From positions 1 to 33,459 of the forward strand of contig JABGRN010000066.1 of assembly GCA_018648265.1 (NCBI GenBank): 33,459 bases of DNA, in the 5' to 3' direction. Numbering within the stretch: the stretch's first letter is position 1; each line of letters begins with the position of its first letter. The notes beneath the pieces are model-generated. The model had not been told where the DNA came from and ran no database searches. It saw nothing but the letters and a program-made list of their open reading frames with translations. Source of the stretch: Prolixibacteraceae bacterium (GTDB lineage Bacteria; Bacteroidota; Bacteroidia; Bacteroidales; Prolixibacteraceae). The position numbers were made by a program, and so were the translations under genes. This document shows, piece after piece, positions 107 through 31,894 of this stretch.

Positions 107-269
107 GAATAAATAATTAAATGAAGAAACTTAAAATTTCACATTTTTTTTTGTATTCTATTTGTATCAGTGGTTTATTCTTCAATAAATCAAGAGGTCT
201 CGTTTTGATCTCTAACTGATTTATTTACAGTATTTTGTACTATGTAAATACAAAAATATAGCGTTTTTA

Positions 270-8963: not shown

Positions 8964-8976
8964 CAAACAGCACTTA

Positions 8977-11900
8977 TTAGAATGAGGTTTTCTCTCGACT
9001 TTCTTTAGTATTATATATTTGCGGAGACACATTTAACGATTCCAATTCAACATTTCTTGTTTTGCCATTAAACTCATGAATGACTAATTTTACAACATTG
9101 TCAGATATTGAAATAACTCTTGAAGACTGAGTCAGATAACCCGCTCCAAAATAAAATTCGACTTTTTCAATTTGTCCACTTTTATATTCCAACTCTGCCC
9201 AACTGTCAGAATTTAGTGGTTTATAAGTTTTTCTATTCTGGTCAACCTTCGTATTATTAACATAAATCATCAGGCTATCTATGTTCTGAGTTGCAATATA
9301 CAAATCTTGAAACTTGCCACTCAACCGAGCGAGTGCTTTGGCATCACCGGGCACTATAAATCCGCTTTCCATACTCGACAATGCATGGAATTCCCCTTTT
9401 CCATCTCCCAACAATACAACTCCGTTTAATGCATCATATCTCCCTGATACTATTTCATTACCAAAGTCATTCCCTACTAATATTATATCCAGATTACCAT
9501 CGTTGTTTATATCGTCGATTTGAATACCGTTAACAGGAGCAAATTGAGTAACTTGTGGCAAGGCTTTCAGTACAAATTTTCCGTTACCTAGATTTTCCAT
9601 ATAACTAGTGAGCGGATAGTTAGCTTCCAGTACTAATAAATCATCAGTACTAAAATGTGACAAGAGTTGTTGCATAGTAACTTCGGCATACTTTTTATAC
9701 GAATCGAAGAGGTTTTTTAAATTAGGAATCTGGTTATTTAATATATCCAGTGAGTGAGCCGGGTATTCAGCCATCTCTCCGGAATTGGTTTTATAATAGC
9801 AACTTAAAATAGGATCGATGCTGCCGTTATTGTCAAAATCTTTGGCATAAATCCTGAGCGGCTTATCAAAAGAGAAATTATAGAAATTATTTAGTCCCAA
9901 ATTACCAACCACGTAATCTGTATCGCCATCTTTATCAAAGTCAGCACCATTTATACTATTCCACCATCCTGAATACTCATTAATACCAGAGTCTTCTATT
10001 TTGGTAAAATTCGATCCGGTATTTTTATATATGTTAATTGACATAAATTCACCAACAACAATTAAATCGGTGGTTCCATTGTTATCATAGTCTGTCCAAA
10101 TTGCATCTGTTATCATTCCGGCTGTTTTCAACGGGCTGCATATTTCATCAGTTACATCATTGAAAACTCCATTGTCGTTTCTGAAAATATAACTGGTTGG
10201 AGAAAAAGGATATTCTCCTGTAATAACCCTGCCTCCAACAAAGAGATCTAAGTCACCATCACCATCAAAGTCAGCTGCTCTAACACACGATCCGCTTGTA
10301 GTTTCTTCTGGAATTAAGCCCTTACTTATTGCAAATTTACCTTTTCCATCATTCAAATAGAGTCTGTCTTTGTAGCGCTCATGTCCTGGAATAAACTCGT
10401 AACTTCCGCTTACCACGTATAAGTCCAGGTCTTTATCATTATCGGCGTCAAATAGCAAAAGTCCTTCATCTTCGTTGTACTTTTCATGTACCTTAATCAG
10501 CTCAGTCTGGCTAAAGCTTCCACTATCGTTTTTCGTAAAAATTGTTGCATTAAAAAATGAAGAACCTCCAACAATGAAGTCTTCCAGCTCATCTCCGTTG
10601 ATATCTCCAACTGCAATACCGGGACCGGCCTGAGAAAATTTATGAGGTAGCGTTCGTTGAAGATAATAGTCAATCTGATCAAATTCCTTATGTATAAATG
10701 ATATCCCTAAATCAGAAGTTATTTCACTAAAATATTTTCGGTCATAGCCAACTTTTGCAGATTCGGTTGTTGGTATTTGCTTTTTTGCATCATCGTAGTT
10801 TACTTCCAATACTTGATTCGATTTTATATTCTGCAAAACTTGTTTTTTACCATCAGGCCAAACAATTTCAAGTTTATTGACCTTATCAAGATTGCCTAAT
10901 CCAAAATGTACAAAATTTTCCATTGTTGATAAGTAGCCACGATAAATTGAATAGTCGCAATACTGAATACTGTCGTTGTTGTAAAATAAAGTAATTTTTG
11001 TCCCTAACTCGCCACCTCTGAATTTACCATTCAGTTTTAATCTTAAATAATGTGGATCCGATTTCTTTAAATGGTCAGAATATAAGGTATTCTCATACAA
11101 ATGAACTTTATCATCTATGTTACTTACGATATAATCTAAATCACCATCGTTATCCAAATCAGCAAAGGCAACCCCGTTTGAGAATGATGGAGTATTGAGT
11201 CCCCATTCGATAGAATTATCAGTAAATGATAAATTTCCATTATTCTTATAAGCGCAATTTGGTAATTTCAAATCGGGAATCATACTTAATAATTGATTTG
11301 ATTTAGTAAACATTCCCACATCATTCCGGTATCTTATGTAATCTATATTAATCAAATCTTTTGGAAAGCCGGTTGTTATCAATAAATCTTTATTGCCATC
11401 ATTATCAACGTCAACAAACAAAGGTGCCCATGACCAGTCGGTTTGATAGAGTCCCAGAAACTGACCAATTTCGCTAAAAGGTGCATTGCCATTATTAATT
11501 TGCACCATATTTCGCACATATTGATATTCGTAATCCAGTTTTTCTGTATTTCTATAAGTTTGGTAAGAACCTCCGCCATCAACAGAAGTTTTCTTTCTAT
11601 AATTAGTTGACGGAATCATATCCAATGTAAAAATATCGACCAAGCCGTCATTATTTATATCGGCAATATCGTTGCCCATGGAGAAACGGCTTTGATGTTT
11701 TAAAAAATATTTTGCTCTATTTGAAAAGGTACCGTCCTGATTATTAATATAAATCAGATCATTGGTTACATAATCATTTCCAACATAAATATCAGGGAAG
11801 CCATCTAAATTAATATCGGCAATAGCGAGGCCCAAACCATATCCTTCATATACTATTCCGGCTTCTATGGTGACATTTGTAAATGTATTGTTCCCATTAT

Positions 11901-12564
11901 TTCTGTAAAGTTGATCGTTTGTTTCGGCTGAGCCATCGATAATCTTGGGATGATAACCGGCTGGTCCTTCTACCCCTACATAATTGGTAAGAACATACAA
12001 ATCTAAATCACCATCCTTATCGTAATCTAAAAATGCTGCATTTTGACTGTATCCAAACTCTTCAACTCCAAATTCTTTGGCCTTATTCTGAAACACAGGA
12101 ATACCTTGTTCATTTAAACCCGTATTTATAAAAAGTGAATTGGCTCTTTTTGATATATCAGGATTCACATTGGCACATACATAAATATCCATAAACCCAT
12201 CATTGTTTACATCTGCTACAGCAGAGCCAGCATTCCATATGTCATTATTTTCAATTCCTGCAATTTCAGAAACGTCTTCAAATTTCAGGTTTCCTCTATT
12301 GAGATACAGCTTATTGGAAACCATGTTTCCGATGAAAAACAAATCACTTAATCCATCGTTATTAAAATCTCCTACTGATACAGATGCCCCATTATAGAAA
12401 TACTCAAAACTTAGTATGTTTACAGAATCAGTTGGGCTTAATGTATTTTGAAATTCAATTCCAGATTCGGCAGAAGGGATTAACCTAAAAAGAGGTTGCT
12501 TGTTATTGCATGAGCTTAAAACTACTAAAAAAACCAAACCAAAATACAGCCCTATTTTTGTCAT
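8977..12564 (-). CDS. FG-GAP/VCBS repeat lipoprotein with central ASPIC/UnbV domain (paralogue B)
   Basis: A 1195-aa lipoprotein, tandem paralogue of the gene downstream of it. The signal peptide MTKIGLYFGLVFLVVLSSC ends in a clear lipobox (Cys19). It has the same plan: seven acidic loops (DFNNDGLSD through DLDNDGDLD), an ASPIC/UnbV domain (GTKITLFYN ... RGYLSTMENFVHFGLG ... VWPDGKKQVL), then seven more loops (DINGDELED to DINNDGNLD). A roughly 100-residue C-terminal tail that paralogue A mostly lacks carries SWAELEYKSGQIEKVEFYFG. The frame is open to 12804, but those 80 residues run through a palindromic non-coding element, so M81 of that frame is used. Cell-surface, calcium-binding; the role in the PUL is unknown. 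Proteins of this kind are frequent beside susCD pairs. Confidence 0.9.
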   Translation of the reverse strand: MTKIGLYFGLVFLVVLSSCNNKQPLFRLIPSAESGIEFQNTLSPTDSVNILSFEYFYNGASVSVGDFNNDGLSDLFFIGNMVSNKLYLNRGNLKFEDVSEIAGIENNDIWNAGSAVADVNNDGFMDIYVCANVNPDISKRANSLFINTGLNEQGIPVFQNKAKEFGVEEFGYSQNAAFLDYDKDGDLDLYVLTNYVGVEGPAGYHPKIIDGSAETNDQLYRNNGNNTFTNVTIEAGIVYEGYGLGLAIADINLDGFPDIYVGNDYVTNDLIYINNQDGTFSNRAKYFLKHQSRFSMGNDIADINNDGLVDIFTLDMIPSTNYRKKTSVDGGGSYQTYRNTEKLDYEYQYVRNMVQINNGNAPFSEIGQFLGLYQTDWSWAPLFVDVDNDGNKDLLITTGFPKDLINIDYIRYRNDVGMFTKSNQLLSMIPDLKLPNCAYKNNGNLSFTDNSIEWGLNTPSFSNGVAFADLDNDGDLDYIVSNIDDKVHLYENTLYSDHLKKSDPHYLRLKLNGKFRGGELGTKITLFYNNDSIQYCDYSIYRGYLSTMENFVHFGLGNLDKVNKLEIVWPDGKKQVLQNIKSNQVLEVNYDDAKKQIPTTESAKVGYDRKYFSEITSDLGISFIHKEFDQIDYYLQRTLPHKFSQAGPGIAVGDINGDELEDFIVGGSSFFNATIFTKNDSGSFSQTELIKVHEKYNEDEGLLLFDADNDKDLDLYVVSGSYEFIPGHERYKDRLYLNDGKGKFAISKGLIPEETTSGSCVRAADFDGDGDLDLFVGGRVITGEYPFSPTSYIFRNDNGVFNDVTDEICSPLKTAGMITDAIWTDYDNNGTTDLIVVGEFMSINIYKNTGSNFTKIEDSGINEYSGWWNSINGADFDKDGDTDYVVGNLGLNNFYNFSFDKPLRIYAKDFDNNGSIDPILSCYYKTNSGEMAEYPAHSLDILNNQIPNLKNLFDSYKKYAEVTMQQLLSHFSTDDLLVLEANYPLTSYMENLGNGKFVLKALPQVTQFAPVNGIQIDDINNDGNLDIILVGNDFGNEIVSGRYDALNGVVLLGDGKGEFHALSSMESGFIVPGDAKALARLSGKFQDLYIATQNIDSLMIYVNNTKVDQNRKTYKPLNSDSWAELEYKSGQIEKVEFYFGAGYLTQSSRVISISDNVVKLVIHEFNGKTRNVELESLNVSPQIYNTKESREKTSF

Positions 12565-12628
12565 ATATCCAATTTTACTTTTAAAATCTTTAATTCGGTT
12601 CCAATATAATATAATACATCTAAGTACC

Positions 12629-12640
12629 GACAATATTGTC
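12629..12640. promoter_or_regulatory. 12-bp palindrome upstream of FG-GAP paralogue B
   Basis: GACAATATTGTC is a perfect 12-bp palindrome 65-76 bases upstream of the chosen start of paralogue B. It could be an operator of an internal promoter after the susD terminator. I could not match a convincing TAnnTTTG element next to it. Confidence 0.3.
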
Positions 12641-12753
12641 AGCCTTTTCATGCTTTCTTGAAGATCAATTTGGAATGACAATAAATCTTTAGGAAACCAT
12701 GCTTTGATAAACAATGATTTTATGTTTTGTAAAAATGAATGGATTATGTGGTA

Positions 12754-12916
12754 GAAGCTGTTTAAAGTTAAATTGAAAATCTGCGAGCAACATCTTGATT
12801 CCACTGGACTTCAGCTATTTTTCATTTCGTAGCTATGGCTACGAAATAAAAACCGAGCTTTGCCACTGAAACCAATATGTCACTCTCGAAAATCCCCTTC
12901 AACTTTAAACAACTTC
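12754..12916. repeat. 163-bp imperfect palindrome, MITE-like element or large hairpin
   Basis: The ends are near-identical inverted repeats, GAAGCTGTTTAAAGTTAAA (12754-12772) and the complement of TTCAACTTTAAACAACTTC (12898-12916), with 17 of 19 matching. The centre is a perfect 10-bp inverted repeat ATTTCGTAGC / GCTACGAAAT (12824-12833, 12838-12847) around a TATG loop. Between them the arms still align in blocks (ACATnTTGnTTnCAnTGG). Total arm length is about 79-80 bases. A GTA flanks both outer ends (12751-12753, 12917-12919) and could be a short target duplication. It lies just past the susD terminator. It has no coding capacity. It could be a miniature inverted-repeat transposable element or a folded RNA. 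Confidence 0.7.
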
Positions 12917-19157: not shown

Positions 19158-19189
19158 CAAAAATAAGAACTATTAAACACAAATGCAAT
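19158..19189 (-). promoter_or_regulatory. Predicted kduI promoter
   Basis: On the minus strand ATTG (-33; CAAT at 19186-19189) is followed after 20 bases by TATTTTTG (-7; 19158-19165). The -7 fits TAnnTTTG exactly; the -33 matches three of four bases. The -33 lies within the LacI-type palindrome. The leader before kduI would be about 160 bases. Confidence 0.6.
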
Positions 19190-19197
19190 CGATTGCA
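19184..19197. promoter_or_regulatory. LacI-family operator palindrome
   Basis: TGCAATCGATTGCA is a perfect 14-bp palindrome with a central CG, the form bound by LacI/GalR-family dimers. It lies 52 bases before the lacI start in the divergent kduI-lacI gap. Its two half-sites supply the -33 elements of both predicted promoters, so one bound dimer could block both genes. I found no second exact copy in the window. Confidence 0.75.
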
Positions 19198-19222
19198 AAG
19201 TAAAAATAATATATTAACTTTA
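19192..19222 (+). promoter_or_regulatory. Predicted lacI promoter
   Basis: ATTG (19192-19195) is followed after 19 bases by TAACTTTA (19215-19222), a seven-of-eight match to TAnnTTTG. The -33 element is inside the palindromic operator, which predicts autorepression. Confidence 0.5.
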
Positions 19223-19248: not shown

Positions 19249-20277
19249 ATGTCAGAAACAACTATCCACGATATTGCAAAAAAATTAAATATTTCAGCTT
19301 CCACAGTTTCGCGGGCATTAAATGATAATCCGATAATAAGTAAATCGACAAGTAAACGGATTAAAAAAACTGCTTTAGAAATGGGTTACCGCCCAAATAG
19401 TTTAGCCGCTAATTTCAGGACAAAACGAACTAATACCATCGGGATAATTGTACCCTTAATAAACAGGCACTTTTTTTCTTCTGTAATCAGTGGGATTGAA
19501 GACCTTGCTTATACACAAGGATTTGCAGTAACAATTTCGCAATCGAACGATAGTTTTGAGAAAGAGAATAAAATAGCACACACCCTTTTTGCTAACAGGG
19601 TTGACGGTTTAATCCTTTCGATTGGAATGGAAACTATAAAATATGACCATTTAAAACTTTTTGCAGAAAGAAAAATACCAATTGTTTTTTTCGACCGGAT
19701 TGCTGAAACAATTGAAGCACATAAAATAGTAGTTGACGATTTTGGTGGTAGCCTGCGGGCAACCGAACATTTAATTGAACAGGGGGCAAAAAGAATTGCA
19801 CATATCGGTGGGCCGTTAAACCTAAAAATATACCAAAACAGATTAGCAGGATATTTTAAGGCATTGGAACGGGCTGGTTTGGAAATTTGCGATTCTTTGG
19901 TGATTCACAATAGCCTAACAAGAAAAGATGGAACAATTGCTGCACAAAAACTTTTTCAAAATGAGAATAAACCCGATGCCATTTTTTGCGCTAACGATAC
20001 AACAGCACTTAGCACAATAATTTATCTAAAAAATATAGGATTAAAAGTCCCCGATGATGTTTTAATTGTCGGGTTTAGCAATGAACCTTTTTCTGAAGTA
20101 GTTACACCTTCGATTAGCACCATTAAACACCCAGGTTTTTCGATGGGTAGAAAAGCTGCTGAGCTAATTATTCATCAAATTAATGAAAAAGTGACCAGGG
20201 CAGTTTTTGAGACCATAACCATGCCAACCGAACTTATTATAAGAGATTCGTCAAAAAGGATAAAAATTGAAAAATAA
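19249..20277 (+). CDS. LacI/GalR-family transcriptional regulator
   Basis: A 342-aa repressor. The N-terminal helix-turn-helix is at residues 5-24 (TIHDIAKKLNISASTVSRAL), followed by a hinge helix with the operator-inserting motif SLAANFRTKR (51-60). The effector domain begins near 62 (NTIGIIVPLINRHFF) and contains the usual VDGLILS, AHIGGP, PDAIFCANDTTAL and VPDDVLIVGFSNEPF blocks. It diverges from kduI over a perfect palindrome and is likely to repress kduI and itself, with release by a uronate-pathway sugar acid (inference). Its stop codon abuts the stop codon of the convergent regulator with no gap. LacI control is less common for PULs than HTCS or SusR. Confidence 0.95.
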   Translation: MSETTIHDIAKKLNISASTVSRALNDNPIISKSTSKRIKKTALEMGYRPNSLAANFRTKRTNTIGIIVPLINRHFFSSVISGIEDLAYTQGFAVTISQSNDSFEKENKIAHTLFANRVDGLILSIGMETIKYDHLKLFAERKIPIVFFDRIAETIEAHKIVVDDFGGSLRATEHLIEQGAKRIAHIGGPLNLKIYQNRLAGYFKALERAGLEICDSLVIHNSLTRKDGTIAAQKLFQNENKPDAIFCANDTTALSTIIYLKNIGLKVPDDVLIVGFSNEPFSEVVTPSISTIKHPGFSMGRKAAELIIHQINEKVTRAVFETITMPTELIIRDSSKRIKIEK

Positions 20278-21480
20278 TCAATTATCAACCTGATTAAAAT
20301 AAATGACCTCAGAATTTAAAGATGTCCCTTCAATTCCTTCAATTTCAAAAACCATATCGAAAAAGAAAGGTGATTTTGAATTTCCTTCACGATAGTTTTT
20401 TATTAGATCATCAAGAAATTCTGAGTCGCATAACTTCTGAGTTACATCATCAATTCCCCCTCTACCTAAGGCCATTATTAAGGTAATTGTATTGTTGTTG
20501 CCACCTGATCGTTTTGATACAATAATATTTTCATTTCTGTACCCGTCTGTATCTCTGTTAAAATCAAATTTATCAATTGCCTTATTATCTTCATCCAGCA
20601 AAAAATACGATCTTTGTTCCAAATCATATTTTATATTAAATCGTGGAAGCAAACGATTCAAAATATAGAGTGTTTTAAAATCTCCGACAAAAATTATATT
20701 GTTCGAATTAATATCTTCCCATGTAAGTACCGAGGCTCGTTTAATCTTAAATACTTCTTTGCTATTTATCAGATGGGGAATTAAAGTTGATACACTTTCC
20801 GACATTTCTGACGGAGTATAAGTATGCCGGTATTCGTTATATCCTAAAGTATCAAGATGGCTTTGTTGGAAATCTTCAGATGAATTTATTTCGGAATTAC
20901 GAACAAAATGCCTGTCACCATCTATTCTTTTCTGCATAAAAAAGAAATCGCCGACAACAATTAATGTTGGTAGATCAGAATTTGAGTATTCTTTCCAAAC
21001 AGGATTTCTGGAAGCAGTTTTTGAATCGCTGAATAGATTGTTTTTCTCATTAATCTGGTGTACAACAAAAACGGTAAGTAAAACCAATGTAATAAAAACA
21101 AATAAGGCAGTAATAAATTTCAACCTATTTAATTTCGAGCTCTTTTTTCTTGATTCAAACTTTACATCGTAATGTCCTTTTGGAATACTTATTTTTATTG
21201 TCGAGTTTTTGCTATCCTCTGAAAGGTAAAACGTCTCCAGTTTGTTCCTTAATTTTCCAGTATAAACTCTTACAGTAGAATCAAGCGACGGATCGAAATC
21301 TCCATCCTTATTAAATACATCGATAGCAATATGTGCCTCTTTGATGTATTCTTTGGCTAGCGTTTTTTTAACCAAATAATCAAGAAGTTTTTTTTCTTTT
21401 TCGGAATTTACAAACTGAGGCGTTTGAAAAATTAATTCCAGCTCTTTTTCTAAAGTTTTTAAATTTACCTTACCCTTCAT
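20278..21480 (-). CDS. Membrane-anchored winged-helix regulator, ToxR-like layout
   Basis: A 400-aa protein. The N-terminal part (about 20-108) matches the winged-helix-like module found in some adenylate-cyclase/TPR and regulator proteins: SEKEKKLLDYLVKKTL, then VFNKDGDFDPSLDSTVRVYTGKLRNKLETFY and ISIPKGHYDVKF. A lysine/arginine-rich stretch precedes one membrane span at about 119-141. The remaining ~255 residues would be periplasmic and contain LPTLIVVGDFFFM and NNIIFVGDFKTLYILNRLL, alternating strands and helices that resemble a Rossmann-like or binding-protein fold. I do not recognise that domain. The layout parallels ToxR/CadC: cytoplasmic DNA binding, one span, outside sensor. It faces the sulfatase operon divergently, suggesting it controls it. 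Confidence 0.7.
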   Translation of the reverse strand: MKGKVNLKTLEKELELIFQTPQFVNSEKEKKLLDYLVKKTLAKEYIKEAHIAIDVFNKDGDFDPSLDSTVRVYTGKLRNKLETFYLSEDSKNSTIKISIPKGHYDVKFESRKKSSKLNRLKFITALFVFITLVLLTVFVVHQINEKNNLFSDSKTASRNPVWKEYSNSDLPTLIVVGDFFFMQKRIDGDRHFVRNSEINSSEDFQQSHLDTLGYNEYRHTYTPSEMSESVSTLIPHLINSKEVFKIKRASVLTWEDINSNNIIFVGDFKTLYILNRLLPRFNIKYDLEQRSYFLLDEDNKAIDKFDFNRDTDGYRNENIIVSKRSGGNNNTITLIMALGRGGIDDVTQKLCDSEFLDDLIKNYREGNSKSPFFFDMVFEIEGIEGTSLNSEVIYFNQVDN

Positions 21481-21537
21481 TATAGGTTTTAAGAATTACC
21501 TGTATAGTTTTTCCCGCATTTCAAGTGCTAAATTTTC

Positions 21538-21567
21538 CAAAATTAATAAAACCGTTTTAAAAGCAAA
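21538..21567 (-). promoter_or_regulatory. Predicted promoter of the membrane winged-helix regulator
   Basis: On the minus strand TTTG (CAAA at 21564-21567) is followed after 18 bases by TAATTTTG (21538-21545), an exact TAnnTTTG match with a slightly short spacer. An operator-like palindrome sits between the two elements. Confidence 0.5.
21547..21559. promoter_or_regulatory. Operator-like palindrome, copy 1
   Basis: TAAAACCGTTTTA is an odd-centred 13-bp palindrome located in the spacer of the regulator promoter. A related copy occurs at 22039-22051 before the first sulfatase. Both are followed on the plus strand by AAAG(C/A)AA, so the shared stretch is longer than the palindrome. Confidence 0.45.
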
Positions 21568-21611
21568 TGAAATTGAAAATTTATCTATGGTTTATTTTAT
21601 GGGATGTGCCA

Positions 21612-21637
21612 ACATGTTAATTATTGTTTTTACATGT
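21612..21637. repeat. Paired ACATGT motifs at 20-base spacing
   Basis: ACATGTT (21612-21618) and ACATGTT (21632-21638) repeat exactly 20 bases apart, two helical turns, in the divergent regulator/sulfatase gap. The first lies in the longer palindrome AACATGTT (21611-21618). Possible regulator binding sites. Confidence 0.35.
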
Positions 21638-21667
21638 TTTTACTTACCTGAATAAAAGGAGATTTGT

Positions 21668-21715
21668 ATGTTTAAGCCAATAAACCAATTAAACCTAATT
21701 TTTTGTATTTGCTAA
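21668..21715 (+). CDS. Possible 15-aa leader peptide
   Basis: ATG at 21668 to TAA at 21713-21715 encodes MFKPINQLNLIFCIC. It is preceded by AAAAGGAGATTTGT, an unusually strong Shine-Dalgarno sequence for this genome, where other genes lack one. The stop codon overlaps the first arm of a 14-bp terminator hairpin. This is the arrangement expected of a leader peptide or a short independent transcript. Confidence 0.4.
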   Translation: MFKPINQLNLIFCIC

Positions 21716-21770
21716 AAAGCATAAAACTAAAGTTGTATTATTTCTTGCAATTTTTGTTTTATGCTTTTTT
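21714..21770 (+). terminator. Intrinsic terminator or attenuator before the sulfatase operon
   Basis: A perfect 14-bp inverted repeat, AAAAAGCATAAAAC (21714-21727) and GTTTTATGCTTTTT (21756-21769), has a 28-base loop and a T6 tail. It directly follows the 15-aa ORF. It would stop plus-strand transcription starting in the first part of this gap; the A/T tracts make it potentially bidirectional. Confidence 0.75.
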
Positions 21771-21815
21771 CGTTTCCATTTTAAACATATTCAAAACTAA
21801 ATATTACAAGGGCTT

Positions 21816-21878
21816 ATGAAAAAAGATGAGATTCGAAAAAACGGCCTTCTTTGTCAGAAAAATATTCCAAAGTTTTAG
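21816..21878 (+). CDS. Possible 20-aa small ORF
   Basis: ATG at 21816 to TAG at 21876-21878 encodes MKKDEIRKNGLLCQKNIPKF. An AAGGG sequence sits about 4 bases before the ATG. A long hairpin follows 37 bases later. It repeats the small-ORF-plus-hairpin plan seen just upstream. It may be chance. Confidence 0.25.
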   Translation: MKKDEIRKNGLLCQKNIPKF

Positions 21879-21915
21879 TTTTTCATATAGATTTTTTGTT
21901 TTGGTAAACAAAAGT

Positions 21916-21963
21916 AAAAGTGGTTTTTCAGATTCTCTTTTGAGATTCTGAAATCCACTTTTC
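21916..21963 (+). promoter_or_regulatory. Long hairpin in the leader region of the sulfatase operon
   Basis: AAAAGTGGTTTTTCAGATTC and its near-complement ending CCACTTTT form a stem of about 20 pairs with two small internal mismatches and a TTTT loop (21916-21963). The tail is TTTTCTAAC, weaker than a normal terminator. It could be an attenuator, an RNA-processing site, or part of a promoter region. Confidence 0.5.
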
Positions 21964-21972
21964 TAACATTTG
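21939..21972 (+). promoter_or_regulatory. Tentative promoter of the sulfatase operon
   Basis: TTTG (21939-21942) is followed after 21 bases by TAACATTTG (21964-21972), which resembles TAnnTTTG with one extra base. It would give a leader of about 150 bases before the first sulfatase. It overlaps the right arm of the hairpin. Weak call. Confidence 0.3.
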
Positions 21973-22038
21973 TGCTCAACTAAAAAATCTGAACTGTTAA
22001 ATGACTTCAATCTTTTTGAATTCAACTTTATTCCGCAA

Positions 22039-22051
22039 AGAAACGGTTTTA
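22039..22051. promoter_or_regulatory. Operator-like motif, copy 2
   Basis: AGAAACGGTTTTA matches the complement of the copy at 21547-21559 in 11 of 13 positions and keeps the palindromic core. It lies about 82 bases before the first sulfatase start. The pair suggests common control of the regulator gene and the sulfatase operon. Confidence 0.4.
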
Positions 22052-22132
22052 AAAGAAACAAGATCTATGTTACAATTCAACTAACACCAATAGCAATTTT
22101 AACAAATAAAGTATAACTTAAACATTCAAAAA

Positions 22133-23527
22133 ATGGTAAACAAATATTTCATAAAAACGGCACTCATTTTTGTTTTTTGTTTTTTTCAGATTCAACAATC
22201 TTTTTCTGAATCGAAACAAAAACCAAACATCGTAATTATTATGACCGATCAGCAATTTGCGGATGCAATGAGTTGTGTTATGGGAAATGATTATTTAAGT
22301 ACGCCGAATATGGATTTATTAGCTGAAAAAGGTGTGCGTTTTACAAAAGCATACGCACCAAATCCATTGTGTTTGCCGATGCGTACTTCAATGGCTACCG
22401 GATTATTTCCACACCAAACAGAAGTTCTTACCAATAACAACAAAAAAATAAAAGCTACAGAATACTCGTTTCTGGGAAAAATATTTAAAGACGCGGGCTA
22501 CGAAACCGGTTATTTTGGAAAGTGGCACATTGCTTTAAAAGAAGAAGAAAAAGAGATTCATGGTTTCGATACAATGTTTCCTAAAAGTAATTTAGACGCT
22601 GAACCAGCAATTGATTTTATAAAACAGGACCACAAAAAGCCATTTCTTGCAGTTGCATCGTTTTTAAGTCCACACGAAATATGTCAGTGGGCACGAAAAG
22701 AGGAATTGCCAGGTGGCCCGATTAGCGAATTGCCAGCATTAGAAAATTTACCTCCGCTTAAAACAAACTTTGGAATTCCTCAAAACGAAACTGATGTTAT
22801 GGCTTTTATGAGAGAGTCGTACCACGCAAACCGCCGCTTTCCGGTTGGCGAATATACCAATGCCGACTGGCGAAGATTGGCTTGGGGTTATAACCGCCTA
22901 ATTGAACGCGCAGATGATTTTGTTGGAGAAATTACAACTGCAATAAAAGAATCGGGGCAGGAAGAAAATACAATTGTTGTGTTTCTCAGCGACCATGGCG
23001 ATTGCGCCGGGAGTCACCATTGGAATCAAAAAACAGTTTTTTACGATGAATCGGCTCGTGTTCCACTGATTGTAAAGTGGGAAGGAGTCACCAAAAAAGG
23101 AACTTCCAATGTTCTGGTAAATACTGGTATCGATATGATTCCAACACTTTGCGATTTTGCAGGAATTGATATCCCCGATGGACTTCCGGGCAAAAGTATG
23201 AAAGCACCAATTTTGGATAAAACACCCAATTGGAAAAGAGACTTTATAGTTTCTGAGAATCACATGGTACAAGGCGATCCGGTTGATGAAAAAGCTTTAC
23301 AACCATTTGGCAGAATGATTCGTAGTACCAATTATAAATATTGCATTTACAGCGAAGGAGAAGAGCGGGAATCATTGGTTGACATGCAATTTGACCCGGG
23401 GGAAATGGTAAATCAGGCAAAAAATCCGGTTTATAAAAAAGTATTGGAACAGCATCGATCATTTCTTAAAGAACATGCGGAGGAAAGTAAAGATAAAATC
23501 GCACTTGAAATGCTCAATGAATTATAA
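22133..23527 (+). CDS. Family S1 sulfatase (CLPMR active site)
   Basis: A 464-aa formylglycine-dependent sulfatase. The signal peptide covers about residues 1-25 (ALIFVFCFFQIQQSFS). The metal site begins with MTDQQ (D39, Q40). The active-site cysteine is Cys80 in CLPMRTSMATG; the consensus is CxPxR, and Met at the fourth position instead of Ser/Ala is unusual. Other catalytic positions are K130 and H132 (GKWH), H181 (SPHE), D287-H288 (SDHGD) and K300. It should hydrolyse sulfate esters on sugars outside the cytoplasm after conversion of Cys80 by a maturase encoded elsewhere. It is the first gene of an eight-gene plus-strand cluster. Confidence 0.93.
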   Translation: MVNKYFIKTALIFVFCFFQIQQSFSESKQKPNIVIIMTDQQFADAMSCVMGNDYLSTPNMDLLAEKGVRFTKAYAPNPLCLPMRTSMATGLFPHQTEVLTNNNKKIKATEYSFLGKIFKDAGYETGYFGKWHIALKEEEKEIHGFDTMFPKSNLDAEPAIDFIKQDHKKPFLAVASFLSPHEICQWARKEELPGGPISELPALENLPPLKTNFGIPQNETDVMAFMRESYHANRRFPVGEYTNADWRRLAWGYNRLIERADDFVGEITTAIKESGQEENTIVVFLSDHGDCAGSHHWNQKTVFYDESARVPLIVKWEGVTKKGTSNVLVNTGIDMIPTLCDFAGIDIPDGLPGKSMKAPILDKTPNWKRDFIVSENHMVQGDPVDEKALQPFGRMIRSTNYKYCIYSEGEERESLVDMQFDPGEMVNQAKNPVYKKVLEQHRSFLKEHAEESKDKIALEMLNEL

Positions 23528-23589
23528 TTTAAAATGTTCAAAGTAAATTAAAATCACAAGGGGTAAACTGAATTACCACCCGTTTCGGA

Positions 23590-23650
23590 AGTGCCACGGT
23601 CTAACCGTGTCACTGTCCTCAACTGTCCCCCTAATTTTATGGGGACAGTT
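23590..23650. repeat. GC-rich double inverted repeat between two sulfatase genes
   Basis: Two hairpins lie in the 190-base gap between the first two sulfatases. AGTGCCACGG / CCGTGTCACT (23590-23599, 23605-23614) pairs at nine of ten positions. AACTGTCCCC / GGGGACAGTT (23621-23630, 23641-23650) is perfect. Neither is followed by a T-tract. Base composition is clearly more GC-rich than the flanking genes. This resembles a REP-like or mobile intergenic repeat that might also stabilise the mRNA 3' end. Confidence 0.6.
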
Positions 23651-23717
23651 TGAGCCGCAAGACCGCTCGACGGGCTGAGGCGAAAACAGGGGGTACAATG
23701 ACAAAAAAACTATTAAT

Positions 23718-25280
23718 ATGAAAAAACTGATTGTCTTCCTTGCAATAATTTCCCTTCTTCCTCAGTGCAAGACAGAGGTAACAGACGAACGTCCCAACAT
23801 TTTGCTTGTAATGGTTGACGACATGGGGTTCTCTGATATTGGCTGCTATGGTGGCGAAATTCAAACGCCAAATCTCGACAAACTGGCCAACGACGGTCTT
23901 CGTTTTTCGCGTTACTACAACACGGCAAAATGTTTTCCATCGCGTGCCTGCCTGCTAACCGGACAATATGCGCAACACAACGGAATGGCTCAAAAAGCAA
24001 TGAAATTTACAAATGCCGTAACCATTGCCGAAGTATTACGCGAAGCGGGTTACCGTACATTAATGAGCGGAAAACATCATGGAGAAGAGAATCCGTTTTA
24101 TTTTGGATTCGACCGTTATTTTGGATTAAAAGATGGCAGCAGCAACCATTTTAATCCTGGTTTACAACGCGACGGCGAAGTTATTCCGGGACAAAAATCA
24201 ACAAGATTTCAACCACGTGCGTGGGGAATAGATAGCATTGTTTACGAGCCTTATACACCTCCCGAAAAAGATTTTTATACCACCGATTATTTTACAAATT
24301 ATGCCGTCGATTATTTAGAGGAATATAAAAATGAGGACAAACCATTTTTTATGTACGTGGCTTACACCGCGCCTCACGATCCCTTAATGGCATGGCCCGA
24401 AGATCAGCAAAAATACTTTGGTAAATACATGGTTGGTTACGAAACCATCCGTCAAAAAAGATTCGAACGACAGAAAGAAATGGGATTAATTAATGAAAAC
24501 TTCCCGCTGTCTGAACCAACATACGAAAACTGGGAATCGCTATCGCAAGAAGATAAACTGGTACGCGATTCAATTATGTCAACGCATGCGGCTATGGTCG
24601 ATCGAGTTGACCAGAATATTGGCAGAATTCTGACGAAACTGGAAGAGCTAAATAAACTGGATAACACTTTAATTTTATTTATGTCGGATAACGGTGCGCA
24701 ACCACAAGCTAATCCCGACAGTTGGCTTTGGGCAAAAGGGAAAGTCTCCGATTATAGCCAGCCCATTGGAAGTATGGGGAGATACACTTCGTTAAGTCTT
24801 TCGTGGGCAAATGTTAGTAACACACCATTCCGTTTGTACAAATCGAACAGTCACGAAGGAGGGATTTCTACACCGCTGATAATGTACTGGAAAGGTAAAA
24901 TTTTAAATCCGGGAAGTATTACTAATTTCCCCTCGCACCTTATTGATATAATGCCTACCATACTTGAAGTAAGCGGGGCAGATTATCCTGAGAATTTTAA
25001 TAACGAAAAAATTAATCCGGTTGACGGAGTAAGTCTTTTTTCATTGGCAAACGGACTTGAATATGAAAGAGAAGAACCACTTTTTTGGCAGTGGCAAAGT
25101 GGGAAAGCTATCAGAAAAGGAAAATGGAAACTGGTGTCAGACAATAACGGACCGTGGGAATTGTACAATATGGATGTTGACGAAACAGAAACAAATGACC
25201 TTGTCGAAGATTTCCCCGAAGTTGTAAAAGAACTAACAGCCGATTGGGAGAATTGGATTCAAAATAGTACCGAAAATTAG
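23718..25280 (+). CDS. Family S1 arylsulfatase-type sulfatase (CFPSR active site)
   Basis: A 520-aa lipoprotein sulfatase. A short signal peptide ends in the lipobox LLPQC (Cys17), suggesting attachment to a membrane surface. The metal residues D34-D35 lie in MVDDMG. The active-site cysteine is Cys72 in the classical CFPSR, followed by ACLLTG. Further catalytic positions are K119 and H121 (SGKHH, replacing the usual GKWH), H220 (APHDP), D324-N325 (SDNGAQ) and K375 (KSNSHEGG). The SHEGGISTPLI block is typical of arylsulfatase-A-like S1 enzymes. It follows the first sulfatase after a repeat-filled gap and may have separate expression. Confidence 0.94.
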   Translation: MKKLIVFLAIISLLPQCKTEVTDERPNILLVMVDDMGFSDIGCYGGEIQTPNLDKLANDGLRFSRYYNTAKCFPSRACLLTGQYAQHNGMAQKAMKFTNAVTIAEVLREAGYRTLMSGKHHGEENPFYFGFDRYFGLKDGSSNHFNPGLQRDGEVIPGQKSTRFQPRAWGIDSIVYEPYTPPEKDFYTTDYFTNYAVDYLEEYKNEDKPFFMYVAYTAPHDPLMAWPEDQQKYFGKYMVGYETIRQKRFERQKEMGLINENFPLSEPTYENWESLSQEDKLVRDSIMSTHAAMVDRVDQNIGRILTKLEELNKLDNTLILFMSDNGAQPQANPDSWLWAKGKVSDYSQPIGSMGRYTSLSLSWANVSNTPFRLYKSNSHEGGISTPLIMYWKGKILNPGSITNFPSHLIDIMPTILEVSGADYPENFNNEKINPVDGVSLFSLANGLEYEREEPLFWQWQSGKAIRKGKWKLVSDNNGPWELYNMDVDETETNDLVEDFPEVVKELTADWENWIQNSTEN

Positions 25281-25299
25281 ATTTTTAGTACTTTAAAAA

Positions 25300-25396
25300 T
25301 TTGCGCTCTTTGCGAAAAACTTTGTGGTATTTGCGTGAAATCCTAAAGTTTTGTTTCACGCAAAGTTCGCGAAAAAGAGACGCAAAGAACGCTAAA
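25300..25396. repeat. CTTTGCG-type intergenic palindrome
   Basis: Repeated TTTGCG units form an imperfect long hairpin. The core is the perfect 11-bp inverted repeat TTTGCGTGAAA / TTTCACGCAAA (25330-25340, 25354-25364). Outer arms contain TTTGCGCTCTTTGCG on the left and CGCGAAAAAGAGACGCAAAG on the right. It occupies the whole gap between the second and third sulfatases. Repeats of this look are scattered in intergenic regions of many Bacteroidota (from memory, not checked). Confidence 0.65.
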
Positions 25397-25443
25397 TATT
25401 ATGATTATAAGAATTAGAGTTTTTTATTAAAAAGTGATTTAAA

Positions 25444-26781
25444 ATGAAGGTATTAATTCTAACTGTAATAATACTAATTACAGCAATAACAATTTTCGCA
25501 TCGAATTCCGAAAATCGTAAACCAAACATCGTTTTATTAATGGCCGACGATATGGGTTACGAATGTCTAAGCTCAAACGGAAGTTTGTCTCACGACACTC
25601 CATTTCTAGATGAACTTGGTGAAAAAGGAATCAAATTTAATTACGCCATTTCGCAACCGCTTTGCACGCCGTCGCGAGTAAAAATAATGACAGGTAAATA
25701 CAACTACCGTAATTATAAAGCCTTCGGTTATCTCGATAAAAATGAAAAAACATTTGGGAACCTGTTAAAAGATGCGGGTTACGAAACTTGTGTTGTAGGA
25801 AAATGGCAACTAAATGGAGTAAATACAAATTTCGAATCAACTGAAAAAGAACTTTTAAAACGACCGCAACATTTTGGTTTCGACGAGTATTGTTTATGGA
25901 ATTTTATGGGTGAATCCGGGTATCGTTTTGCCAACCCAAAACTTTATCAAAATGGAAAAGAATTAAAAGGTCTGGAAAATAAATACGGTCCGGATGTAGT
26001 AAGTGATTACGCAATCGATTTTATGGAAAGAAATAAAGACAAACCCTTTTTCTTGTACTACCCCATGATTTTAACACATTCGCCGTTCGTTCCAACGCCA
26101 GATTCAAAAGAGTGGAAAAACAAAAAACTACGCCATAAAAATGAAGACCGCTTTTTTAAAGATATGGTTGAATACACCGATAAAATAGTTCAAAAATTAG
26201 TCGCCAAAATTGAGGAATTGGGACTTTCAGAAAACACCATTTTTATATTTACTGCCGACAACGGTACGCATTACAAATTAACAACACAAACTGTAAATGG
26301 CCCTTTTAAAGGTGGGAAAGGAACCATGCCCAATGCAGGATCGCACGTGCCAATGGTGGTTTATAATCCATCGAAAATTAAAAATGGTTTTGATTACAAC
26401 GAATTATTTGAATTCAGCGATTTCCTGCCAACTTTTGCCGAAGCTGCCGGAATAAAAACTCCCGATGGAATTGATGGTAAAAGTTTTTATCCTCTCTTTT
26501 CCGGTCAAAAACAAGAAGCCCGCGAGACAGTTTTTGTACATTACGACCCGCTAAAAAAAGGAGGAAATGAACGTTGGTACGGAAGATTTGTTCGAAACAA
26601 AACTTACAAGCTTTATAACGATGGGCGGTTTTACAATGTGAGTCAGGATTCACGAGAACAAAATCCAATATCAAAAGAAAAACTGATGACAAAAGAAAAC
26701 CACTTGTGGGAAATATTTCAGGCTGAACTGGAAACAGCACCACCCTACTATTTTAAACAGCGAGATGAGTATGATGAGTAA
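25444..26781 (+). CDS. Family S1 sulfatase (CTPSR active site, GKWQ variant)
   Basis: A 445-aa sulfatase with a signal peptide (about 1-20, ending ITIFAS). The metal residues D35-D36 lie in MADDMG. The active-site cysteine is Cys74 in CTPSR, followed by VKIMTG. The usual GKWH is GKWQLNG here, with Gln122 replacing His; some S1 sulfatase subfamilies seem to carry this natural variant. HSPFVPTP, FTADNGTH and GPFKGGKGTM supply the other metal and substrate positions. The gene overlaps the next one by 17 bases, which points to translational coupling with the amidohydrolase. Confidence 0.93.
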   Translation: MKVLILTVIILITAITIFASNSENRKPNIVLLMADDMGYECLSSNGSLSHDTPFLDELGEKGIKFNYAISQPLCTPSRVKIMTGKYNYRNYKAFGYLDKNEKTFGNLLKDAGYETCVVGKWQLNGVNTNFESTEKELLKRPQHFGFDEYCLWNFMGESGYRFANPKLYQNGKELKGLENKYGPDVVSDYAIDFMERNKDKPFFLYYPMILTHSPFVPTPDSKEWKNKKLRHKNEDRFFKDMVEYTDKIVQKLVAKIEELGLSENTIFIFTADNGTHYKLTTQTVNGPFKGGKGTMPNAGSHVPMVVYNPSKIKNGFDYNELFEFSDFLPTFAEAAGIKTPDGIDGKSFYPLFSGQKQEARETVFVHYDPLKKGGNERWYGRFVRNKTYKLYNDGRFYNVSQDSREQNPISKEKLMTKENHLWEIFQAELETAPPYYFKQRDEYDE

Positions 26782-27769
26782 TTCAAATAAAATATCCAGA
26801 AGGGAATTTAACTCAAAGTTGGGTAAAATTGGAGCTGGACTGATTGCAGCAAGCGTACTTCCTTCATTCGGAACTCTTGCACAAAACAATCCGCATGAAG
26901 GAAAATTTATTGATGTTCATCACCATTTGGGAAGCGATTTAATGACCGACTCTGCCAACTTCACATTCGACCCAATTATAAAATGGATGAACAAAAACAG
27001 TGTTTCGCAAACCGTTTTGCTTTCACCCATTCAATATCCCGAAACGTATTATCCAACCAGAGCCGGAAATATTATCAGAAATGATGAATTGCTTGAAAAA
27101 TTTCAGGAAACAAACGGACGGCTTTTGCCATTTTGTTTAGTTCATTACGATGCATTTTCGACTACCAAAGAAATTGTAAAAGTTTTAAAGCGGTTTAAGA
27201 AAAAAGGAGTAATCGGCTTTGGTGAATTAAAACCTCGGGATACTTCCGGAAACTCGGGAAATATACCATTGGATGATCCACGAATGAAACGAATTTATGC
27301 CGCTTGTGCAGAAGTAGATTTCCCGGTTTTATTTCATATCGACAACAAACATGCAGTTGATATACCCGGATTACCCGCCATGGAAAAAGTTTTAAAAGAA
27401 TTCCCCAATGTGAATTTTATCGGCCATGCAAACGGTTGGTGGAATTCCATAACCAGCGACGTAAAAGAGCTAAAAGGATATCCAAAAGGTAAAATTTCTC
27501 CCGGCGGGGCAGCAGTCAAACTGCTCGAAAATTATCCAAATATGTATGCCGATTTATCAGCTAACAGCGGATTAAATGCAATTACCAGAGATCCCGAATT
27601 CGGCACGAAATTTTTAGTCGATTTCTCTGATAAACTTATGTTTGGAACCGATGCAATCGGTGGAACTGGTCGTGAATCTCATTTCGATTTTTATAACAAA
27701 ATTGATTTACCGGAAGAGGTAAAAGACAAAATCTTTAGAAATAATACACGCAAACTGCTTAAAATTTAA
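26765..27769 (+). CDS. Tat-exported amidohydrolase (Amidohydro_2 family)
   Basis: A 334-aa metal-dependent hydrolase. A twin-arginine signal, ISRREFNSKLGKIGAGLIAAS, spans about 10-30 and is followed by a cleavage-like region near 40, so it is probably folded with its metal before export. Metal and catalytic positions of the TIM barrel are H52 and H54 (DVHHH), E154 (GFGELKP), H191 (FHIDN), H221 (GHANGWW) and D296 (FGTDA). Starts at 26765, 26771 and 26774 are all possible; all overlap the end of the preceding sulfatase. The substrate is unknown. Such amidohydrolases recur in sulfatase-rich Bacteroidota loci, where a lactone or ester bond is as plausible as an amide. Confidence 0.88.
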   Translation: MSMMSNSNKISRREFNSKLGKIGAGLIAASVLPSFGTLAQNNPHEGKFIDVHHHLGSDLMTDSANFTFDPIIKWMNKNSVSQTVLLSPIQYPETYYPTRAGNIIRNDELLEKFQETNGRLLPFCLVHYDAFSTTKEIVKVLKRFKKKGVIGFGELKPRDTSGNSGNIPLDDPRMKRIYAACAEVDFPVLFHIDNKHAVDIPGLPAMEKVLKEFPNVNFIGHANGWWNSITSDVKELKGYPKGKISPGGAAVKLLENYPNMYADLSANSGLNAITRDPEFGTKFLVDFSDKLMFGTDAIGGTGRESHFDFYNKIDLPEEVKDKIFRNNTRKLLKI

Positions 27770-27779
27770 ACTTACTAAA

Positions 27780-28742
27780 ATGAAAAATATATACTTCTTT
27801 TTAGGATTTATTTCTTTATTGATTTCCATAACAAGTCCGGCTCAGGACAAAAAGAAAAGTGAAGCTTTAATTCCAGAAGGATTTGAAGTTATCAAAGATG
27901 TATTTTACGCCGGAAATACAAACCAAGCACAAACTTTAGATGTTCTTATTCCAGAAAATAAAAAAACAGGGAAACTCCCAGCTCTCGTATTTATCCATGG
28001 AGGAGGTTGGAAAGGTGGTCGAAAAGAACAAGCTTTTAAAACACTCACGCCCTTTTTGAAAAGTGGCAAATATGTTGGATTTTCAATAGATTACCGGCTG
28101 AGTGATGAAGCAAAATGGCCGGCACAAATTCACGATTGTAAAGCAGCCATTCGATGGATTAAAGCAAATGCCGATAAATACGGAATAGACAAAAATAAAA
28201 TTGGCGTTTGGGGTACTTCGGCAGGCGGCCATCTAGTGGCAATGCTGGCTTTAACTTCAGAATCGGGTGAATTTGAAGGAGATATTGGAAACTGTTTAAA
28301 TGAAAATGGAAAAATTAATTGTGCGATAGATGGATATGGACCAGCTGATTTTTTGGCAATGGATGATCGACCGGGTGCTTTTGTTCACAATGAAATAAGT
28401 TCGCCGGAATCCAGATTAATTGGTGCGCCAATTCAGGAAGATAAGGAAAAAGCACTAAATGCATCTCCGGTTTCGTGGGTATCAAAAAATTGCAAACCCA
28501 TGCTTGTTTATCACGGAACCGATGATGATAAAGTAATAGTCGAGCAGTCAGACAAACTTTATTCAATGCTTAAAAAAGCCGAGGCAAGTGATATATTTTA
28601 TATCAAAATCGAGGGAGGAAGTCATGGAGTCCGGCATTCAATCCTTTCAAAAAGAATGGCACTTTTTTTTCAAAAATACCTTTATAATAAAAATTCAAAT
28701 AAAATAAATGAAGCGGAGCTGAATAATGAACCGCGTCGCTAA
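27780..28742 (+). CDS. Secreted alpha/beta-hydrolase, BD-FAE-like carbohydrate esterase
   Basis: A 320-aa exported esterase. The signal peptide covers about residues 1-21 (LISITSPAQ). The oxyanion loop HGGGW is at 73-77, the nucleophile Ser147 is in GTSAGG, the acid is probably Asp249 in HGTDDDKV, and the catalytic His282 is in GGSHGV. The layout matches the BD-FAE/lipase-like group, which removes acetyl or other acyl groups from polysaccharides. It is 10 bases downstream of the amidohydrolase and 18 bases upstream of the fourth sulfatase, so it is co-transcribed. Likely role: deacylating the sulfated glycan (inference). Confidence 0.88.
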   Translation: MKNIYFFLGFISLLISITSPAQDKKKSEALIPEGFEVIKDVFYAGNTNQAQTLDVLIPENKKTGKLPALVFIHGGGWKGGRKEQAFKTLTPFLKSGKYVGFSIDYRLSDEAKWPAQIHDCKAAIRWIKANADKYGIDKNKIGVWGTSAGGHLVAMLALTSESGEFEGDIGNCLNENGKINCAIDGYGPADFLAMDDRPGAFVHNEISSPESRLIGAPIQEDKEKALNASPVSWVSKNCKPMLVYHGTDDDKVIVEQSDKLYSMLKKAEASDIFYIKIEGGSHGVRHSILSKRMALFFQKYLYNKNSNKINEAELNNEPRR

Positions 28743-28760
28743 ACTTTAAATTTAATTATA

Positions 28761-30326
28761 ATGAAAATCAAAAATCTAATACCAACTATTCTACTTTTAG
28801 CAATTCTCGGATTTGGATGTGAAAAGGAACAAGTTAAACAACCTAATGTTTTATTCATTTCCATAGATGATCTAAACGATTGGGAAGGTGCTATGGGAGG
28901 AAACCCACAAGCTATAACACCAAATCTAGATCGCTTGTTTGACCAAGGTCTTTTATTCACCAATGCTCACTGTTCACAGGCAGTTTGTACCGCATCTCGA
29001 AATTCGTTGTTAAGTGGAATTCATCCTTCCACTTCTGGTTGGTACAGTTCAACCGGAGCCATGAAAAGGACTTACGATGAGGTGATGGCTGAACACGCAA
29101 TGTTGCCTCAGTATTTTAAAGACAATGGTTACAAAACAATGGCTGTTGGTAAAATTTTTCATGCCGGAGTGACGGATTATAAAGACCGCATCGACGATTT
29201 CTGGGACGAATATGCACCCGACTACAAAGTCCCAAAAGATTTAAAAGACCGTGGCGATGGTTACGGTGGAACAAAATTCTACCCCTTTCCAAAAGACCAC
29301 AGTCAGATTATTACGCACTACGGACAAGATTTTAACAGTGGACAGTCCTTGTGTTACGGAGCACTGGACCGCGAAGACATGCCAGGCGGAAAAATGTTCG
29401 ATGAACTGATTTCGGAATGGGCCGTTGATAAGTTAAACGAAGAACACGAAAAACCATTTTTTATGGCTGTTGGTTTTGTTCGCCCACACGTTCCTTATAC
29501 CGCTCCAAAAGAGTATTTCGATTTATATAATCTTGATGATATTAAAATTCCAGAATTTCCAGAGGATGAAATGTCAGACATTCCAAACATGGGAAAATCG
29601 ATTGCTTATGGAACCATAAAAACTGGTGATCATTATGCAGTTGTTAACTTGAGTGATACTTACTGGAAAGAGCTGGTTTACGGATATCTTGCCTGCGTTT
29701 CGTTTGTTGACGACCAGGCAGGGAAAGTAATTGATGCATTGGAAAACAGTAAATATGCCGATAACACAATTGTAGTTTTGTGGTCGGATCACGGTCAGCA
29801 TTTAGGCGAGAAAAAACACTGGCGTAAACAGGCTTTGTGGGAAGAATCGACAAAAGTGCCGCTTTATTTTAAAATGCCCGGGCAAAAAACACAAGGTTTA
29901 AAAACCAAAGAGGCAGTTAGCCTTTTAGATATTTATCCAACGCTGGTTGACTTATGTAATCTCCCCGACGCCCCAAAATTGGAAGGCAATAGTTTGGCTC
30001 CATTAATCCAAAACCCTGAAATGGAATGGAATAAACCTGTATTGAACTCTTGGTATTATGGAAACTACGCAATTAGAAGCAATGACTGGAGGTACATTCA
30101 GTACCGCGATGGCAGCGAGGAATTATACAATCATCAAAACGATCCGGGCGAACACATCAATCTGGCAAGTGATCCTCAATATGCTGAAATTATTGCCGAA
30201 CATAAAAAATGGCTTCCAGAAACAAATGCGCTGCCAGCCGGCATTACTGAATGGACAGGGGACAGATTGGATAATAGAATAAAAGAATGGGCTGCTAATG
30301 ATTCCATTCCGGTTTGGTTAAGGTAA
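28761..30326 (+). CDS. Family S1 iduronate-2-sulfatase-like sulfatase (CTASR active site)
   Basis: A 521-aa lipoprotein with signal peptide and lipobox GFGC (Cys20). The metal residues D36-D37 lie in ISIDDLNDW. The active-site cysteine is Cys76 in CTASR, followed by NSLLSG; Ala replaces the usual Pro, a variation allowed in the formylglycine signature. K131 and H134 occur in VGKIFHAG, a spacing typical of the iduronate-2-sulfatase-like branch. VGFVRPHVPYTAP and LWSDHGQHLGEKKHW complete the active site. The type suggests 2-O-sulfated uronic acid or a related sugar as substrate, which agrees with the kduI/kduD genes, but the fold covers other specificities. Confidence 0.93.
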   Translation: MKIKNLIPTILLLAILGFGCEKEQVKQPNVLFISIDDLNDWEGAMGGNPQAITPNLDRLFDQGLLFTNAHCSQAVCTASRNSLLSGIHPSTSGWYSSTGAMKRTYDEVMAEHAMLPQYFKDNGYKTMAVGKIFHAGVTDYKDRIDDFWDEYAPDYKVPKDLKDRGDGYGGTKFYPFPKDHSQIITHYGQDFNSGQSLCYGALDREDMPGGKMFDELISEWAVDKLNEEHEKPFFMAVGFVRPHVPYTAPKEYFDLYNLDDIKIPEFPEDEMSDIPNMGKSIAYGTIKTGDHYAVVNLSDTYWKELVYGYLACVSFVDDQAGKVIDALENSKYADNTIVVLWSDHGQHLGEKKHWRKQALWEESTKVPLYFKMPGQKTQGLKTKEAVSLLDIYPTLVDLCNLPDAPKLEGNSLAPLIQNPEMEWNKPVLNSWYYGNYAIRSNDWRYIQYRDGSEELYNHQNDPGEHINLASDPQYAEIIAEHKKWLPETNALPAGITEWTGDRLDNRIKEWAANDSIPVWLR

Positions 30327-30393
30327 TAGACTTACCTGACCTCCCCAAAGGGGAACAAAAACATTTATATATAAAATTTTAAATAAAAATATT

Positions 30394-31869: not shown

Positions 31870-31894
31870 GGCAAAAAAAATAAGATTTAAATTC

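Follow-up and report, generated by a model that had tools for sequence, protein, structure and literature searches.

A candidate ToxR/CadC-like membrane regulator of an undescribed family, divergent from a presumed sulfatase operon in a Prolixibacteraceae bacterium

Regulators of the CadC and ToxR/TcpP/TfoS type share a layout in which an OmpR-class winged helix at the N-terminus is joined by one membrane span to a periplasmic sensor at the C-terminus, and the ToxR-class members known so far are mainly activators. According to the available part of PMC8517210, ToxR possesses N-terminal strands and uses head-to-tail repeats about one helical turn apart, with the tox-box TNAAA-N5-TNAAA. CadC and the co-component systems are the subject of PMC5430869 and PMC9214523, both available in part. 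For the PULs of Bacteroides, the accessible sections of PMC3878776 name regulators of the SusR-like, HTCS, ECF/anti-sigma, LacI, GntR, AraC, ROK, NrtR and Crp types, and the accessible sections of PMC5698469 describe an AraC-family regulator in the carrageenan PUL of Zobellia. A survey of transmembrane regulators, as excerpted in PMC10269533, takes its DNA-binding domains from MiST-listed Pfam models.

The gene described here lies in a window of 33,459 nucleotides, the whole stretch of Prolixibacteraceae DNA that was analysed (contig JABGRN010000066.1). It occupies positions 20278-21480 on the minus strand and encodes, from an ATG start, a protein of 400 residues that consists of a winged-helix domain, one membrane span and an outer domain. 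The reading frame, the winged-helix N-terminus, the one span and the divergence from a sulfatase gene are all confirmed as the original prediction had them. Pfam and NCBIfam scans place the protein in no family at its cut-off and detect no histidine kinase, receiver or AraC-like domain at E up to 1; one search of its own genome finds no second copy. The protein is best read as a ToxR/CadC-like one-component regulator from an undescribed family, in which the winged helix forms its own subfamily and the sensor domain is new; its target would be the sulfatase operon. The ToxR/CadC layout is known; the winged-helix subfamily, the unrelated sensor and the glycan-operon role, assigned by position, are new. 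The membrane sensor originally predicted is supported in part: architecture, family and divergence now stand behind it, whereas the outer fold, the ligand and the direction of control are what we infer.

On the plus strand, a divergent gene run (22133-33331), delimited by position, Pfam and clustering, is presumed to form one operon and to be the target. Its first gene encodes a sulfatase, and the run contains four sulfatases, two of them assigned through Pfam and two through clustering, as well as an amidohydrolase, a BD-FAE-type hydrolase, a PhoD-like phosphatase and a BNR_4 protein. The regulator and the sulfatase gene at 22133 are separated by a divergent promoter region of 652 bp (21481-22132). 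An inverted repeat with 22-nt arms of 91% complementarity (21714-21769) and a hairpin of two nested 12-nt pairs (21916-21962) also lie in this gap. The other arm of the locus encodes KduI, SusD, a giant FG-GAP protein, a second giant that clusters with it, an SDR protein and a DUF4861 protein, along with what we take by eye to be a SusC-like receptor. Two very large proteins, one of them with FG-GAP and UnbV_ASPIC domains, follow the SusC/SusD pair at 5547-12804, and the gene at 1772-2380 presumably encodes an antitermination protein of the NusG/UpxY type, judged by eye. A LacI-family regulator gene (19249-20277, plus strand) is convergent with the regulator, and a CG-centred palindrome, ATGCAATCGATTGCAA, at 19183-19198 between the KduI and LacI genes is a possible LacI operator. 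The original prediction, which set the membrane protein in place of the usual PUL systems, needs care on this point: a LacI-family gene adjoins and is preceded by an operator-like palindrome, which makes a second regulator of the PUL probable.

The N-terminal DNA-binding domain spans residues ~22-108 (21157-21417, minus strand), as delimited by the family hhalign to OmpR-type domains and by conservation. A probable recognition helix covers residues ~68-86 (21223-21279, minus strand), its limits taken from a low-confidence model, and the wing, on the same strand, carries the conserved family motif PKGxY at residues 100-104. By single sequence the predicted winged helix stays below threshold, the best weak Pfam match being Trans_reg_C (PF00486) with 15.2 bits against a cut-off of 26.2 over residues 26-83; 13 of 24 members scanned reach E 0.1 or better with this model, the best 3.4e-4. 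Family-wide, the winged helix is clear. With the first 118 residues of the family set against 11 OmpR-type domains from the same genome and E. coli CadC, the two hhalign profiles match at E 4.2e-7 (one comparison) with a score of 42.7, and the match spans both the recognition helix and the wing. Controls against the OmpR set score 18.5 or less in 30 column shuffles, 13.4 for the reversed profile and 13.8 for the outer domain. The alignment starts after the N-terminal strands, where a model of pLDDT 44.8 has a helix. Taken by itself, CadC gives a weak match (E 0.0026), and the match of the OmpR set to the N-domain of relatives with TPR-type C-termini is weak too (E 0.0063, six sequences). Since the full profile match is good and these two are weak, the N-terminus most probably belongs to the OmpR-class winged helices, in a subfamily outside Pfam coverage.

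Following this domain, the Kyte-Doolittle hydropathy profile (windows of 19 residues, cut-off 1.6) has a single hydrophobic segment, in agreement with the one span expected at about residues 119-141 (21058-21126, minus strand; best window 122-140). The net charge is +6 directly before the segment and 0 directly after it, so that the N-terminus should be cytoplasmic and the C-terminal domain, residues ~150-400, periplasmic. The span lies at the usual place in 38 of the 39 outer-domain members scanned, the remaining one ending at a contig edge, and a net positive charge precedes it in 36 of the 38.

The outer domain (residues ~150-400; 20281-21033, minus strand) is delimited by family conservation and profile searches. 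Its top conserved residues include W162, G177-D178, R194, N199, S200, S250, N261, G266 and K269, with further conserved positions at an acidic residue (317), G342, F374 and G382; at position 340 the window protein has R where the family mostly has D. Many of these residues are polar or glycine, a composition that would suit a ligand pocket. The sensor had been described as matching nothing familiar, and it is indeed without a Pfam, NCBIfam or PDB match. Among 62 outer-domain members scanned, no Pfam family is common to them (14 families, one member each, E<=0.1), and sequence and profile searches of the PDB with the regulator and the outer domain give chance matches only, the best at E 0.2. 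By hhalign, the domain has no relation to CadC residues 188-512 taken as a single sequence (E 0.34) or to the TPR-type C-termini of the N-domain relatives (E 0.72). AlphaFold2 on three-row alignments reaches pLDDT 44.8 for the whole protein and 45.6 for the outer domain, too poor to use. An alternating pattern of strands and helices appears in these models, and the suggested Rossmann-like fold is only a guess, because both predictions are this poor; a Foldseek search with the outer-domain model returns no match at E<=0.001, which is uninformative at such model confidence. A sulfated or uronic ligand, as originally suggested, would fit the neighbour genes, since sulfatases and KduI occur here and alginate-lyase-type genes lie near three relatives.

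One hundred members were gathered, the window protein included, from Bacteroidota, Calditrichota and Catenovulum plasmids; 96 carry the outer domain, defined by a profile match extending past position 370, and 4 have other C-termini. Three of the 96 are N-terminally incomplete (L069, L081 and the second copy in L145). A search with the whole protein finds matches in 40 of the 140 genomes from its GTDB family, the own genome included, two of them (G044 and G064) through the N-domain only. The outer domain by itself finds 38 of the 140, again with the own genome, spread over 11 of 23 genera; the reading frames are 374-513 aa long save one that ends at a contig edge. This recurrence makes the family more than chance. 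The phylum sample gives at least 15 matching genomes of 395, own included and three mainly by the N-domain, a lower bound because few candidates were scored per genome; the order sample gives 4 of 247, own included. Members occur in one Calditrichota genome and on plasmids of Catenovulum, Persicobacter and Novosphingobium, the last left out of the 100, and no relative was confirmed on viral contigs. On a Novosphingobium plasmid (L181:8494-11099), two members stand stop-to-stop on opposite strands. The nearest relative is 69% identical over the available part, which ends at a contig edge, and 61 other relatives aligned across the outer domain are 16-31% identical. Members from Catenovulum are annotated 'hypothetical protein' or 'helix-turn-helix domain-containing protein'.

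The N-domain also occurs with another C-terminus in rhizobial, Bosea and Bacteroidota proteins, which where annotated are called adenylate cyclase or hypothetical. Their N-domains fall in one family with that of the regulator (E 8.9e-30 by hhalign; the best matches on plasmids are ~37-40% identical), but their C-terminus is unrelated to the outer domain and gives TPR matches in 2 of the 4 scanned with Pfam. The proteins L096-L099 combine the same N-domain with other C-termini and are without a span at the usual place; TPR matches are found in L096 and none in L098.

Divergence from the upstream gene is nearly universal, occurring in 92 of 93 members with a median gap of 168 bp, three of the 96 being left out for want of an upstream gene in view. 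Among other genes of at least 250 aa at the same loci the figure is 177/661 (Fisher 3e-45 against the family), a control that also counts the genes standing divergent from a family member. The downstream gene is convergent in 75 of 96 cases, on the same strand in 20 and not in view in 1, and a co-transcribed partner is therefore not the rule. Some neighbours and starts may be wrong, since neighbouring reading frames of at least 100 aa were called mechanically.

The original prediction had proposed a survey of homologues next to sulfatases; a sulfatase is the first divergent gene in 5 of 92 cases, and 67 of the 92 first genes belong to clusters with a glycan-type Pfam representative, TonB/SusC included. 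The commonest are Gfo/Idh/MocA oxidoreductase (16), GH2 (16), 3-keto-disaccharide hydrolase (12) and TonB/SusC (9), besides GH3 (3); DUF6807 (8) and DUF1553-type genes (3) are not counted in the 67. Ten first genes of a single type include GH97, alginate lyase, UxuA and a sugar transporter, and ten are unlabelled; five of the latter, when scanned, proved to be GH92, an MFS transporter, an Ig-type protein and two without a family, and none was added. Random genes of the same genomes are glycan-type in 8 of 20 cases (p 0.008 against the family). Three of the eight lie no more than 10 kb from a family gene, and one of these three is its divergent neighbour; the eight also include a TonB receptor whose substrate is unclear. 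Without the three the figure is 5/17. Labels come from one scanned representative per cluster (E 1e-5) for neighbours and from scans at E 1e-10 for random genes. Glycan genes abound in these genomes, which keeps the enrichment modest; divergence is the strong signal.

The gaps of the family carry TTAACSGTTAA elements arranged head-to-tail every 11-12 nt, in the form TTAACSGTTAAA followed by a second ACSGT half-site. Taking a single gap for each group of proteins at 60% identity leaves 61 of the 92, and the word ACCGTTA is present in 25 of these gaps (25/61), against 7/516 other gaps of the same loci. A held-out motif, for which the 449 control gaps of at least 60 nt were scored once per fold in two folds, is present at threshold 8 in 25/61 family gaps against 14/898 scorings of other gaps, and at threshold 10 in 18/61 against 6/898. 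Divergent control gaps reach 6/156 (5/78 and 1/78 by fold) and shuffled gaps 8/610 (5/300 and 3/310). The Fisher value of 5e-23 is nominal, since the 449 gaps are counted twice among the 898 scorings; these control gaps also served for choosing the seed word of each fold. Steps of 11-12 nt between GTTA words on the same strand, a class chosen after the histogram was seen, account for 35/124 in family gaps and 16/207 in control gaps, and with a motif-free repeat score at this spacing control gaps reach the family mean in 0 of 5000 draws. On a midpoint-rooted tree, ACCGTTA is found in 37/68 gaps of the larger clade and 3/24 of the other, and the motif thus belongs mainly to the larger of two clades. 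The TTAACSGTTAA repeats are a candidate operator, predicted from the gap sequences, in much of the family.

The window belongs to a branch of the smaller clade, in which the 11-12-nt periodicity is suggestive (p 0.06). Its gap contains two AACSGTT-type elements, both candidate operators on the plus strand: AAACCGTTTTAAAAGCAA at 21549-21566, ~70 bp before the regulator start, and AAACGGTTTTAAAAGAAA at 22041-22058, ~75-90 bp before the sulfatase start. Their common core AAAACCGTTTY occurs twice in 33 kb and nowhere else, with 0.10 expected. As an operator of the family type the pair is unsupported, with ACCGTTA in 0/15 and AACSGTT in 2/15 gaps of the branch and with 81 of 500 Markov shuffles reaching the score of the window's own best repeat, which is within chance. 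A repeat of 10-nt period, ATGTTAATTATTGTTTTTACATGTTTTTACTT, at 21614-21645 on the plus strand is not significant by itself, as 81 of 500 Markov shuffles reach its score.

These features are probably best explained by a ToxR/CadC-like membrane-embedded regulator that activates its divergent catabolic operon, here the sulfatase operon. The periplasmic outer domain (~150-400) would respond to a small molecule, in the likeliest case one that the operon's own enzymes release from a glycan, and the signal would travel through the single span to the cytoplasmic winged helix. Two or more winged-helix subunits would then bind the head-to-tail repeats in the common upstream region, and the divergent operon, here the one starting at 22133 and assigned by position, would be switched on. 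By analogy with the ToxR/CadC class, activation seems somewhat likelier than repression. The same protein could instead be a repressor or autoregulator that blocks the divergent promoters without ligand and is released by it. The elements lie at varied distances from both starts in the family gaps, which suits repression as well as activation, and in the window a related element lies close to each of the two starts; however, the held-out elements stand mostly in one orientation relative to the divergent operon (20 plus, 5 minus), which favours directional activation, and the known ToxR-class members are, as noted above, mainly activators. Repression is accordingly a tentative alternative to which we give a minor share.

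The presence of the LacI gene beside the regulator brings in another candidate, in which the LacI-family protein controls the sulfatase operon through the AACSGTT elements of the gap and the membrane protein acts elsewhere. The two elements are partly palindromic about a central CG, with 5 and 4 of the 8 positions of the arms matching, and the window's branch is without the family motif. Directly before the LacI gene, however, the palindrome at 19183 pairs 7 of its 8 arm positions and does not resemble the gap elements, which makes the AACSGTT pair less likely as LacI operators. This palindrome is no proof, because three of equal quality occur elsewhere in the window, and as a sequence it is single-copy there within 3 mismatches, which chance reproduces in 40 of 100 shuffles. 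With a LacI relative at 2 of 96 other loci, against the near-universal divergence of the membrane gene, control by the LacI neighbour is improbable. Least likely of all, and very doubtful, is an N-terminus that serves as a protein-interaction module in a membrane receptor for another factor. The single-sequence Pfam score is under the cut-off, and no strands like those at the N-terminus of OmpR can be made out, a helix preceding the match in the low-confidence model; against this reading, the profile match covers the recognition helix and the wing at E 4.2e-7, and in much of the family direct repeats associated with the promoter are found beside the gene.

Polysaccharide gene switching is, to our knowledge, less well known outside the well-studied gut Bacteroides, and direct membrane sensors that stand beside their presumed targets have ligands that can be guessed from the neighbouring enzymes. 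The predicted operator repeat in much of the family gives a basis for a binding assay, and a compact biosensor for the glycans of seaweeds and plants could be built on the regulator. Because the DNA-binding domain scores under the Pfam cut-off, surveys that rely on Pfam could overlook the family, a possible blind spot; judging from the available part of PMC10269533, that survey may have missed it. Searches of openly licensed papers listed no description of the family.

In comparison with known systems, the regulator shares its overall plan with CadC and the ToxR/TcpP/TfoS type, but its periplasmic domain is unrelated to that of CadC (E 0.34), its N-domain matches CadC weakly (E 0.0026), and the family is placed beside sugar operons, unlike these regulators. 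The repeat period is 11-12 nt in the family and 10 in ToxR, by the tox-box given in the available part of PMC8517210. ToxR is co-transcribed with its periplasmic partner ToxS, whereas the family has no ToxS-like partner as a rule, and the window has the convergent LacI gene in this place. The SusR-like and HTCS regulators of Bacteroides PULs are likewise membrane-anchored, sense in the periplasm, control PULs and use direct-repeat motifs, as far as PMC3878776 is accessible. The DNA-binding domain of SusR, by the description in those sections, is C-terminal and that of the regulator N-terminal; HTCS proteins contain two-component parts and an AraC-like domain, and neither type has an N-terminal winged helix with one span. 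In conclusion, the chances are evenly balanced that the family, with members in Bacteroidota, Calditrichota and some proteobacteria, is an undescribed class of membrane-embedded one-component PUL regulators beside SusR, HTCS and the ECF/anti-sigma systems. Such a class would have a winged-helix subfamily and a direct-repeat operator code (AACSGTT) of its own, and its periplasmic domain would represent a new fold for sensing glycans.
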